A stretch of 64,000 bases of DNA from assembly GCF_900115705.1 (NCBI RefSeq), contig NZ_FOXL01000005.1, forward strand, positions 352,454 through 416,453, read 5' to 3'. This document shows positions 40,388-42,982 of this stretch, in pieces (positions within the stretch are counted from its first letter, which is position 1; each line of letters opens with the position of its first letter). The stretch comes from Frateuria terrea. Its GTDB lineage: Bacteria; Pseudomonadota; Gammaproteobacteria; Xanthomonadales; Rhodanobacteraceae. The position numbers and the translations under genes were made by a program. The notes beneath the pieces were generated by a model. It saw nothing but the letters and a program-made list of their open reading frames with translations. It had not been told where the DNA came from and searched no databases.

Positions 40388-41287
40388 ATGAACACCCGCG
40401 ACCTGGAGGCTTTCGTGGCGGTGGTCGACCATGGTTCGATCCTCGCCGCAGCGGCCCAGCTACATCTGACCCAACCCGGCGTCACGCGCCGCGTCCAGAG
40501 CCTCGAGAACACGCTGGGCGTCGAGTTGCTCGACCGCCAGTCCAAGCCGCTGCGCCCCACCGCCGCGGGTCGGGACGCCTACCAGCTCGGCCGGCGCGTG
40601 CTCGCCTCGCTGGATGACCTGCGCGCGGGCGTGGCGAGCGGCGGGGAGGTACGCGGCGAGTTCCGGTTCGGCATCACGCCGTTCCTCGCCGACATCGCCC
40701 TCGAGGAACCGCTGTGCTCCTTGAGCGAGACGTTTCCCTCGCTGCACACACGCGTCAACAGCCGCTGGTCGGCCGAGCTGCTGGCCGATCTCGATGCCAA
40801 CCGAATCGACGCGGCCCTGGTCTACCTGCCGGGCGACAACGAGCCACCCGCCGGCCTGGCGCGGGAGCGGCTGTGCCGCATCGCGGTGAAGGTGATTGTG
40901 CCAAAGACCCTGAAGCTTCCCCGCAAGGTCACGCTGCACGACCTTTCGGACCAGCGCTGGGTGCTCAACCAGGACGGCTGCGGTTTCCGCCGCGTGCTGC
41001 GGCGTGCGCTCGAGGCGGCGCAACTCCCCTTCCACGTGGCGGTCGAGGCCTTCGATCCGGTCCTGCGTCACTCGCTCATTGCGCGCGGACTCGGTATCGG
41101 CCTCACCGCCGGCGAGATGCTCAAGCACAGTCCCTATCGAAAGGCGCTGCGTGTGATCGACGTCCCGGAGTTCAAGGCCGAGGTGCGCGCCTGGCTGGTC
41201 CACCGACCGATCGACGGCCGCCTGGCCGCGCCACTGGAGCATCTGCGCGACGCGTTGCGCGAAGCGCTCGGCGCCTTTCCGGAGTGA
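40388..41287 (+). CDS. LysR-family transcriptional regulator
   Basis: The 299-residue protein has a LysR helix-turn-helix (FVAVVDHGSILAAAAQLHLT, then QPGVTRRVQSLENTLG) and a full effector domain (FRFGITPFLADIALEEPLCS and VLRHSLIARGLGIGLTAGEM). It is divergent from the MFS transporter and probably controls it. Its last 75 or so bases (from 41213) and about 90 bases beyond the stop are repeated at 41471-41637, so a second, headless copy of the C-terminus lies downstream. Confidence 0.9.
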   Translation: MNTRDLEAFVAVVDHGSILAAAAQLHLTQPGVTRRVQSLENTLGVELLDRQSKPLRPTAAGRDAYQLGRRVLASLDDLRAGVASGGEVRGEFRFGITPFLADIALEEPLCSLSETFPSLHTRVNSRWSAELLADLDANRIDAALVYLPGDNEPPAGLARERLCRIAVKVIVPKTLKLPRKVTLHDLSDQRWVLNQDGCGFRRVLRRALEAAQLPFHVAVEAFDPVLRHSLIARGLGIGLTAGEMLKHSPYRKALRVIDVPEFKAEVRAWLVHRPIDGRLAAPLEHLRDALREALGAFPE

Positions 41288-41377
41288 TCCTTCCTAATGG
41301 GAGCGAACCACCGCCATGGCGGCCAGCCGCGGGCGGGCGGCGGATCAATTCCCGACTTAACTACCTCCATCCCCTTT
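41213..41377 (+). repeat. Copy A of duplicated LysR 3' end plus flank
   Basis: From GACGGCCGCCTGGCC through the LysR stop at 41285-41287 to the motif TACCTCCATCCCCTTT. Copy B at 41471-41636 repeats this unit with scattered mismatches at a distance of 258 bases. The palindrome CCGCCATGGCGG at 41311-41322 lies in it. Confidence 0.85.
41357..41377. repeat. Copy 2 of TACCTCC(N)TCCCCTTT motif
   Basis: Core TAACTACCTCCATCCCCTTT, at the right end of copy A of the LysR-tail repeat. Confidence 0.85.
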
Positions 41378-41446
41378 TTTGGGTTTCTGAGCGCCGCGGT
41401 GAAGAGGCTAGACCGGACTCAGCTCCCTCCGCCCCGTTGCTCGAAC

Positions 41447-41467
41447 TTAATTACCTCCGTCCCCTTT
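41447..41467. repeat. Copy 3 of TACCTCC(N)TCCCCTTT motif
   Basis: Core TAATTACCTCCGTCCCCTTT, directly abutting the left end of copy B of the LysR-tail repeat (which begins at 41471). Confidence 0.85.
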
Positions 41468-41470
41468 ATT

Positions 41471-41545
41471 GACGGCCGCCTGGCCGCGCCACTGGAGCAT
41501 CTGCGCGACACGTTGCGCGAAGCGCTCGGCGCATTTCCGGAGTGA
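41471..41545 (+). pseudogene. Headless duplicate of LysR C-terminus
   Basis: This stretch encodes DGRLAAPLEHLRDTLREALG followed by AFPE and a stop, the same as the last 24 residues of the LysR gene except Ala to Thr. It has no start codon of its own and no upstream LysR sequence, so it is a non-functional remnant created by the duplication. Confidence 0.85.
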
Positions 41546-41615
41546 TCTTTCCCCGTGGCCAGCGAACCACCGCCTTGACGGCCAGCCGCCGGCGGGCGGT
41601 GAATCGATTCCCGGC

Positions 41616-41636
41616 TTAACTACCTCCGTCCCCTTT
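41616..41636. repeat. Copy 4 of TACCTCC(N)TCCCCTTT motif
   Basis: Core TAACTACCTCCGTCCCCTTT, at the right end of copy B and only 12 bases from the stop codon of the AT-rich gene. Confidence 0.85.
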
Positions 41637-41648
41637 GTTTATTAGGGG

Positions 41649-42464
41649 CTATTTCATTACTTTCTTCATCAACCGAAAAAAGCTATTCACTTCTTTATAC
41701 AAAGACCTTAACTTCTTTTCTTCAGTAAATAGATCATCGAAATACGTTGCATAGGCCACATAAGTCATATCCACATCGTCGTTTACTGTCTTATCAACAT
41801 CTAGTGGCACATTTCCTCCATTGGCTATTGTCCTTACTAGATTGAGGTAGTGGCAGGCGGCAATTCGGAACACGAAGTAGTTATACAGCTTGCCTTTTAT
41901 GCATGGTCTAGCGCCCATCCGAAGTTGAGCCATTGCCGCAAGCTCAAAAATACCTTTTACAATTTTCTTGGCGACAGATTCCGAGTAGGGATGTCCTTGC
42001 CTGATTTGAGCACGCTCATCTTTGGTGAAGCTCATCATTATCGCTCTAACGATGCCCGAATGATTTTGACGGTCTAGCCGCATTTTTTCGAAGTGCTCTT
42101 GCGATGCGCGCTGGTGTTCTAGCACTTGTTTTCGTACATATTCGTTTGTTTCAAGCTGTTCAAGGGAACGGCAAAATCCGGGGAAGTTTCGCGTACTCTC
42201 TCGGTTGATTAGCCTATTCCTTAAGCCCGCCTCAGCGCCATGTAGCAACAATACTTGAGGCGTGTTCTTGAGAACAATAACCTTGTCTGCATATTTGCTT
42301 AATAATTTGTGAGCCCAGACGATGCTTCTGAGTTCGTCCGATTTATAAGTTTCCATGGCGCTAAAATCCGTCACCGCAACGAAGCAGGCAGGAGCTCTGA
42401 GCCACTCTTCCAGTTCCGGTTTATGGCGATAGTTTTGGTCCAAAACAGCTATTTTCTTTTCCAT
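41649..42464 (-). CDS. AT-rich accessory gene, PIN-like nuclease candidate
   Basis: The 271-residue product starts EKKIAVLDQNYRHKPELEEW and has SAMETYKSDELRSIVWAHKL near 35-55. Near its C-terminus, NDDVDMTYVAYATYFDDLF is followed by TEEKKLRSLYKEV. A first-strand Asp, a middle Glu, and a late D..Y..A...D..(T)..E/K block are the usual arrangement of PIN-domain ribonucleases; this is a fold guess. Base composition is foreign: 21 of 60 bases are G or C in the line at 41701, against 44 of 60 at 44701. ATG 42464 fits a PIN start; ATG 42524 with a GGGAGGGGG leader is the alternative. No antitoxin gene is visible. I do not recognise the family. Confidence 0.6.
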   Translation of the reverse strand: MEKKIAVLDQNYRHKPELEEWLRAPACFVAVTDFSAMETYKSDELRSIVWAHKLLSKYADKVIVLKNTPQVLLLHGAEAGLRNRLINRESTRNFPGFCRSLEQLETNEYVRKQVLEHQRASQEHFEKMRLDRQNHSGIVRAIMMSFTKDERAQIRQGHPYSESVAKKIVKGIFELAAMAQLRMGARPCIKGKLYNYFVFRIAACHYLNLVRTIANGGNVPLDVDKTVNDDVDMTYVAYATYFDDLFTEEKKLRSLYKEVNSFFRLMKKVMK

Positions 42465-42634
42465 AACTCGGCCAATTTCTTCTAGAAATCTGTAGCTGCA
42501 ATTCAGTATATACAGCAGCCCCATACCCCCTCCCTCCCCCCACCTGGCAGGACAGGCTACGCGCCGAGAATAGCGGAGCCACTCCCTTTTCAAATTCCTA
42601 ATATGGGTTGGCTGCTCTGAGCGTCTCTGAGTTG

Positions 42635-42667
42635 TCGCGGCTCTTGGGCGGTTAGCTCAGCGGTAGA
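42635..42667 (+). repeat. Partial tRNA-Val 5' copy (inverted relative to the intact gene)
   Basis: The 33 bases from TCGCGGCTCTTGGGCGG to the D-arm ...AGCGGTAGA are identical to the 5' flank and first 22 bases of tRNA-Val, whose own copy is on the opposite strand at 42961-42993. After the D-arm the sequence departs completely, so this is not a functional tRNA. Confidence 0.9.
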
Positions 42668-42824
42668 CGCTGGAGCGAAGCGACAGGACACACTGGCGTG
42701 TGTCCCTACCTTCACTAGGTAGGGCCATTCCTAAGGGAGACAGTAGGTTAGCTATGGATGTGCACACATAGCCCTGTGCACAGAGAACCGTGCACATTGA
42801 CCCCTGTGAACGAGGGGCTTATTT
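42668..42824 (+). ncRNA. Possible structured RNA or element remnant
   Basis: Starting from the tRNA-like leader, this stretch folds into GGACACAC-TGGC-GTGTGTCC, CCCTACC-TTCACTA-GGTAGGG, GCTATG...CATAGC and CTGTGCACAG. It closes with CCCCT-GTGAACG-AGGGG followed by CTTATTTT, which looks like a weak intrinsic terminator. Expression is unknown; it may equally be a remnant of a mobile element end. Confidence 0.35.
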
Positions 42825-42848
42825 TGTGAATGTTCTCTAGGGAGAAAT

Positions 42849-42881
42849 GAAAAAGGGAACCCTCTCGGATTCCCCTTTTCC
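42849..42881 (-). terminator. Terminator of tRNA-Val
   Basis: Read on the minus strand, GGAAAAGGGGAATCC and GGGTTCCCTTTTTC form a stem with a GAGA loop and a following U-rich tail. It lies about 27 bases after the CCA end of the tRNA. Confidence 0.75.
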
Positions 42882-42907
42882 ACCTGCTAGATCAACAGGT
42901 TAGTTCT

Positions 42908-42982
42908 TGGTGGGCGGTACAAGGATCGAACTTGTGACCCCTACCATGTCAAGGTAGTGCTCTACCGCTGAGCTAACCGCCC
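42908..42982 (-). tRNA. tRNA-Val (GAC)
   Basis: The 75-base minus-strand gene reads GGGCGGTTAGCTCAGC at its start, has the anticodon loop TTGACAT with anticodon GAC, the T-loop TTCGATC, and an acceptor GGGCGGT/ACCGCCC closed by encoded ACCA. All four stems pair. Bases 42961-42982 at its 5' end are part of the 33-base inverted repeat with 42635-42667. Confidence 0.95.

Follow-up and report, generated by a model that had tools for sequence, protein, structure and literature searches.

What is the lone, AT-rich gene that sits beside a tRNA-Val gene in Frateuria terrea, and does it belong among the new nuclease or defense genes that the initial annotation suspected at this place? The window analyzed here is a 64,000-nt stretch of contig NZ_FOXL01000005.1 (positions 352,454 to 416,453 of the forward strand), in which the gene and its flanks comprise the following features.

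41649..42464, minus strand: solitary gene for a predicted split-PIN protein, 271 aa, stop codon included in the coordinates (open reading frame and predicted model)
41210..41639, no strand assigned: 3′ end of a LysR-like gene, imperfectly duplicated in tandem, and three copies of CTTAAYTACCTCCRTCCCCTTT
42635..42667, plus strand: tRNA-Val 5′ half with its leader, repeated exactly in inverted orientation (33 nt)
42648..42905, no strand assigned: segment of about 250 bp adjoining tRNA-Val, also found in congener G840 (88% identity)
42908..42982, minus strand: tRNA-Val (GAC); the gene content beside the tRNA varies in the genus

A solitary AT-rich gene at a tRNA-Val site

The 271-aa reading frame opens with an ATG at 42464 and runs without an internal stop. 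This start was taken over that of the longest reading, a TTG at 42593, because relatives of the protein start at that ATG. At 43.9% G+C the gene lies below every other 816-bp stretch sampled across the window at 50-bp intervals (mean 67.4%, sd 3.8%), which confirms the earlier description of a lone AT-rich gene; its base composition is foreign. Within the gene, G+C falls to 35.5% in a 200-bp window and to 29% in a 100-bp window, in keeping with the 35% first reported in places, whereas the 73% first given for the neighbors is the upper end of the 66–74% range of the four flanking ORFs. Between positions 41371 and 43067 we found no further same-strand ORF longer than 55 aa, which leaves room for a very small gene. 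At 271 aa and with no adjoining same-strand ORF above that size, the gene answers to the earlier picture of a protein much longer than VapC and lacking a neighboring antitoxin gene.

The flanks are likewise as first described, with a repeat cluster on one side and, on the other, a tRNA-Val accompanied by an exact 33-nt inverted partial copy. In the left duplication, matches extend over 85 nt (95%) and 79 nt (89%), and the 25-nt repeat CTTAAYTACCTCCRTCCCCTTT, present three times, comes after each tandem copy of the LysR-like 3′ end; one more copy within two mismatches occurs in the genome outside the cluster. None of the five congeners has a full match to the LysR-like gene (the names LysR and UvrB for flanking genes are our presumption from reading the proteins). 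The 250-bp segment on the tRNA side starts with the inverted tRNA 5′ half, and positions 42641–42810 are predicted to form a compact fold with multiple arms (MFE −70 kcal/mol, z −3.1) that by eye has a tRNA-like look. Rfam lent no support to the segment being a known RNA, with no match above the cut-off except tRNA. The G840 genome also holds a second partial copy of the segment near a second tRNA-Val match (L088).

The junction between uvrB and tRNA-Val is kept in five of five congeners, at 89–92% identity, and searches of the same five genomes for the split-PIN family gave no match. Beside the tRNA, G839 carries an N6/N4 DNA methylase, G841 a pPIWI-associating nuclease domain, G838 an NA37 nucleoid-associated protein and G842 a PNGaseA-like protein, while G840 has the same 250-bp segment as the window, followed by a transposase-like end at the contig end. 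We take NA37 and YejK to be one family. The YejK nucleoid-associated domain is named among newly validated defense domains in one study (PMC13092281). Given this differing content, we regard this side of tRNA-Val as a place of gene turnover, three of the five congeners having conflict-type genes there. In G838 the NA37 gene is followed by a 452-aa gene of unassigned family, both at a lower G+C of 54% (L083:2552-4941), possibly a two-gene defense unit; in G841 the pPIWI-associating nuclease domain protein stands together with a 183-aa gene beside tRNA-Val (L082:3140-4497).

A family predicted to adopt a split PIN fold

Searches of PADLOC, PHROGs and NCBIfam with the window protein gave no match, and Pfam gave a single row, below the cut-off (E 0.082). 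Single-sequence scans with it of genome, viral and phage collections returned no relative. The family was opened by tblastn on plasmids, which yielded seven alphaproteobacterial relatives, annotated plasmid copies being named “hypothetical protein.” Alignments built from these plasmid relatives and their kin then led to 24 loci in genome contigs, three viral contigs and further whole genomes; 47 loci, near duplicates included, were examined in all. According to titles and taxonomy lines, the family occurs in Pseudomonadota, Planctomycetota, Omnitrophota, Verrucomicrobiota and Acidobacteriota. Among Pfam matches up to E 1 for 24 family rows there was no PIN model, and against PADLOC-DB 2.0.0 these rows gave two weak matches in single members (E 0.01 and 0.02), neither of them the window protein. 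A tblastn search of phage records with a prophage member gave no match, and among the papers listed in literature searches none on the split-PIN family was recognized by name, unless DS-3 (discussed below) is that family.

Counting the window's own genome in each set, the family is present in 5 of 233 genomes of the same bacterial family, in 4 of 398 drawn from the phylum and in 1 of 274 from the class. In the order of one alphaproteobacterial-looking relative it was found in 9 of 396 genomes, three of the nine copies having internal stop codons. Six of the 47 loci hold broken or truncated copies (L008, L035, L037, L040, L062, and L064), which shows that the gene is lost often. The relatives are under purifying selection (dN/dS 0.06–0.33 in 7 of 10 pairs of relatives, the other three being saturated; the window gene is in none of the pairs). 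The nearest relative, L023, comes from the same bacterial family, is 41% identical and pairs with the window protein at a support of 100/100.

For structure prediction with AlphaFold2, the window protein was aligned with loci from the family search (24 rows), which gave a model with pLDDT 89.0 and pTM 0.87; a second model, with a prophage relative as first row, reached 89.4 and 0.88. The window protein is accordingly divided into three parts, as predicted.

42204..42464, minus strand: N-terminal part of the predicted PIN core, residues ~1–87, with D9, D33, E38, and K41 (strands 4–8, 27–31, 62–65; boundary approximate)
41919..42203, minus strand: helical insert, residues ~88–182, a proposed sensor or lid (helices 88–102, 108–144, 148–155, 162–182; boundary approximate)
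41652..41918, minus strand: C-terminal part of the predicted PIN core, residues ~183–271, with R200, D229, D232, D243, and E249 (helices 196–214, 223–239, 250–270; strand 244–246)

VIA-align was run over Foldseek candidates, comprising 997 chains for the window model and 599 for the prophage model. PIN-domain proteins took ranks 1–20 with the window model (11 of 20 by title) and ranks 1–24 with the prophage model (16 of 24 by title), where titles with PIN, VapC, VapBC or PilT N-terminus were counted; for the remainder (9 with the window model), namely the Nmd4, HARP, archaeal helicase and SSU-processome chains and 3i8o, 7vwo, 1y82, and 2fe1, we assume a PIN identity. SMG6 came first with the window model (Z 6.6, rmsd 3.5, 116 residues aligned), VapC of R. 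felis gave Z 6.3 (rmsd 2.7, 113 aligned), and 3i8o reached Z 7.2 (rmsd 2.7, 110 aligned) with the prophage model, although Z values of 6–7 are middling and values below 8 can reflect a common arrangement. Among non-PIN chains, TyrRS reaches Z 5.1, level with the weaker PIN matches in the window-model list, and TrpRS begins at Z 4.7 in the prophage-model list.

Against the PDB, neither model had a Foldseek match at E ≤ 0.001; with the window model, the top E-values belonged to unrelated chains, TrpRS for instance. The PIN domain of human SMG6/EST1A, which heads the VIA-align list, there stood at rank 4 with a probability of 0.89, the highest among the best 50 rows, but it is eukaryotic, its Foldseek E-value is 0.62 and no sequence similarity to it was found. 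Profile searches of PDB sequences gave chance matches alone, connecting the family to no PIN protein of solved structure, and a structure search of BFVD gave nothing coherent. Because the matches span residue 1 to about 260 or beyond with only 95–131 residues aligned, the core would consist of both chain ends, and the helices at residues ~88–182 would form an insert.

In PIN domains, whose fold is a parallel sheet flanked by helices, the characteristic acids follow strands 1 and 4 and are found in the helices that come after strand 2 and before strand 4. The residues that had been picked out by the initial annotation are all present, VLDQN supplying D9, SAMETYKS E38 and K41, and DVDMTYVAYA D229 and D232, followed by D243 and by E249 in TEEK. 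In the 24-row alignment D33, E38, K41, R200, D232, and D243 are invariant, D9 is found in 23 rows (the remaining row being cut by a contig end) and N228 and D229 in 22. Position 244 is G in 22 rows and D in the window protein and one other; at position 249, 23 rows have D and the window protein alone has E. D9, E38, D232, and this fourth acid fit the PIN pattern. The two models agree in their leading matches, and the acidic residues fit; on these grounds we accept the PIN fold, which the family protein very probably has; the PIN core suspected at the outset is the leading structural match in both models, at middling scores. The window protein and its relatives form a real and mobile protein family, undescribed so far, for which a split PIN fold is predicted.

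Genomic settings of the relatives

The gene is poorer in G+C than the median of its neighbors at 44 of the 46 loci compared, and at 35 of them it falls in the lowest quarter. Neighbor genes were called with a simple script (at least 55 aa), and a recurrent partner was sought in all 47 loci; no neighbor family occurred in more than four of them, so the gene has no fixed partner. Thirty neighbor proteins, chosen by eye from 19 of the 47 loci, were put through family searches. As these were made without control loci, what they support is recurrence of defense genes nearby, not enrichment.

Among full-length copies of the gene, the one in L059 has an opposite-strand neighbor at 4 bp that matches Upx over nearly its full length (2e-149), that in L048 an Old/GajA-like ATPase at 47 bp (8e-37), and that in L006 a Dsr1-like SIR2 gene at 10 bp. 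SIR2 and pAgo genes about 0.9 kb downstream (L020, of which L039 is a near copy), which we take to be of the kind known as SPARSA, and a BsuBI/PstI endonuclease with an Eco57I-type methylase (L056, of which L057 is a near copy) likewise accompany full-length copies. C5 methyltransferase genes lie near full-length copies in L003 and L007, and phage integrases in L006, L038, and L055. Annotated Vsr and Z1-domain genes accompany the copy in L003 and also the broken one in L008, and of the truncated copies one adjoins a CBASS cyclase, TRIP13 and Cap17 (L064) and another has a DUF4062 neighbor that matches the candidate PDC-S60 (L062). Other neighbors were less distinctive: a PLD/NgoFVII match in L021 fell below the Pfam cut-offs, an HNH-like neighbor was confined to four rhizobial loci with an HNH_5 match (L003) below the Pfam cut-off, and a DEAD-box helicase was seen only in L037. 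Large neighbors had no match in Pfam or PADLOC (L063) or in PADLOC (L005), and several loci (L036, L045, L049, L051, and L052 among them) have neighbors that look ordinary by eye, without a recognized defense gene.

Four members (L009, L010, L043, and L065) lie in phage DNA with endolysin and tail genes, three of them also with a DNA methyltransferase gene; the endolysin was searched in L009 and L065 and other phage genes in L009, the rest being assigned by shared families. By a reading of their genes, these phages look P2-like. At a distance of 1.3 kb from the nearest relative, L023, there is a phage portal gene (phrog_68, 5e-151), and the gene after this family member had no PHROGs match. 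In P2, a defense hotspot between gpA and the portal gene gpQ is described by Rousset et al. (2022; PMC9122126), and four defense systems found at the P2 hotspot by Vassallo et al. (2022; PMC9519451). On the other side of L023 no gpA was recognized and the genes look by eye like host genes; this prophage is therefore possibly incomplete, and its resemblance to the P2 hotspot holds on one side. In L009 (6840-9267) and L010 (6285-8574) the split-PIN gene stands between same-strand genes of 238 aa and of 269 or 224 aa, the latter overlapping its stop codon, a possible three-gene cassette; neither gene flanking the L009 copy matched a Pfam model. The gene that follows prophage members has by eye a RES-like look, for which Pfam and PADLOC gave no support.

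The expectation that homologs would be found in defense settings is thereby supported: they occur near known defense genes and integrases, on plasmids and within prophage DNA. These settings are varied and mobile, not the one conserved, non-mobile context that had been set against it.

Competing explanations and a candidate mode of action

The best explanation, to which we give a probability of roughly 55%, is that the gene represents an undescribed, mobile family of single-protein anti-phage RNases with a split PIN fold. In our judgment the family is likely to have nuclease activity, and the balance tilts somewhat toward an anti-phage role. The nearest described system is DefensePredictor DS-3 of E. 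coli, a single protein in which the PIN domain is split and which, when mutated at its catalytic residues, no longer defends against phage; its authors suggest self-inhibition until infection (PMC13092281). Likened by description only, DS-3 and the family share a one-protein form, no antitoxin and a PIN domain split between N and C terminus, and the family looks to work in the same way. A blastn search of E. coli genomes with one prophage member gave no match, a result that excludes close DNA similarity alone. The original proposal of a new nuclease or defense gene is supported, but because DS-3 already has the same architecture by its published description, the idea is less new than supposed. 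We regard as doubtful the bolder proposal that the family is unrelated to DS-3 in sequence and constitutes a phage-triggered, self-inhibited RNase with a helical sensor threaded through its PIN domain, spread over Pseudomonadota, Planctomycetota, Acidobacteriota, Verrucomicrobiota and Omnitrophota, such that split-PIN single-gene immunity would have arisen more than once.

The protein might instead be a toxin of the VapC kind, an RNase checked by a partner gene that is located elsewhere or has been lost. VapC toxins share the PIN fold and the acidic set and are among the best VIA-align matches, and two relatives lie near what by eye are toxin–antitoxin-like pairs (HEPN-MNT-like in L058, ParE-Phd-like in L060). 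However, a VapC is a single PIN domain of about 130 aa (123–142 aa in the matched chains), about half the length of the 271-aa window protein with its large helical insert, no VapB was seen, and neither the recurrent-neighbor search nor the ORFs adjoining the window gene offer a partner, which leaves this explanation unlikely. Another alternative is an RNA-processing role resembling that of HARP, the minimal protein-only RNase P, whose PIN core also has inserted helices. HARP structures appear as weak matches in both VIA-align lists (8ssf with Z 5.8 and 131 aligned; Z 4.9 with 126 aligned), and HARP is classed as a PIN subgroup (PMC8266387). Yet the family is patchy (5 of 233 and 1 of 274 genomes, as counted above) and occurs in mobile contexts, and the Pfam matches of the 24 rows up to E 1 include no PIN model, whereas HARP proteins belong to the HARP/PIN_5 profile; we consider a HARP-like function highly improbable.

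Two further explanations concern what the gene does for its carrier, or whether it does anything. Its presence in prophage DNA, on plasmids and beside integrases would also suit prophage or island cargo with some other role, such as counter-defense or competition between mobile elements, but relatives occur as well in non-prophage settings with Upx, restriction–modification and SIR2–pAgo genes, and we rate this explanation as rather unlikely. It is conceivable, at a lower probability still, that the window copy itself is a decaying or non-catalytic remnant: E249 and D244 replace a nearly invariant D and G, the flanks are rearranged with partial duplications, and 6 of the 47 relatives are broken or truncated. 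Against this stand a full-length reading frame, the retention of the other conserved residues and a confident model.

For the anti-phage RNase that we favor, we infer a mode of action made up of self-inhibition, a phage trigger, catalysis on an RNA target and an abortive outcome. The PIN nuclease fold would be assembled from the two chain ends around the helical insert. In the uninfected cell the nuclease would be held inactive, plausibly by its own insert, a possibility suggested by the fact that no antitoxin gene accompanies the gene. A phage cue would then release the nuclease, whose putative active site, metal-dependent and formed by D9, E38, D232, and the acidic residue 249, would cut RNA, probably tRNA or mRNA, with the result that the infected cell is stopped.

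If the family does serve in defense, its members would make up a large natural set of PIN nucleases that are self-contained and free of an antitoxin, with which one could ask how such a nuclease stays off and which phage signal activates it. For the genus, the comparison of congeners marks the tRNA-Val site as a place of turnover of conflict-type genes.
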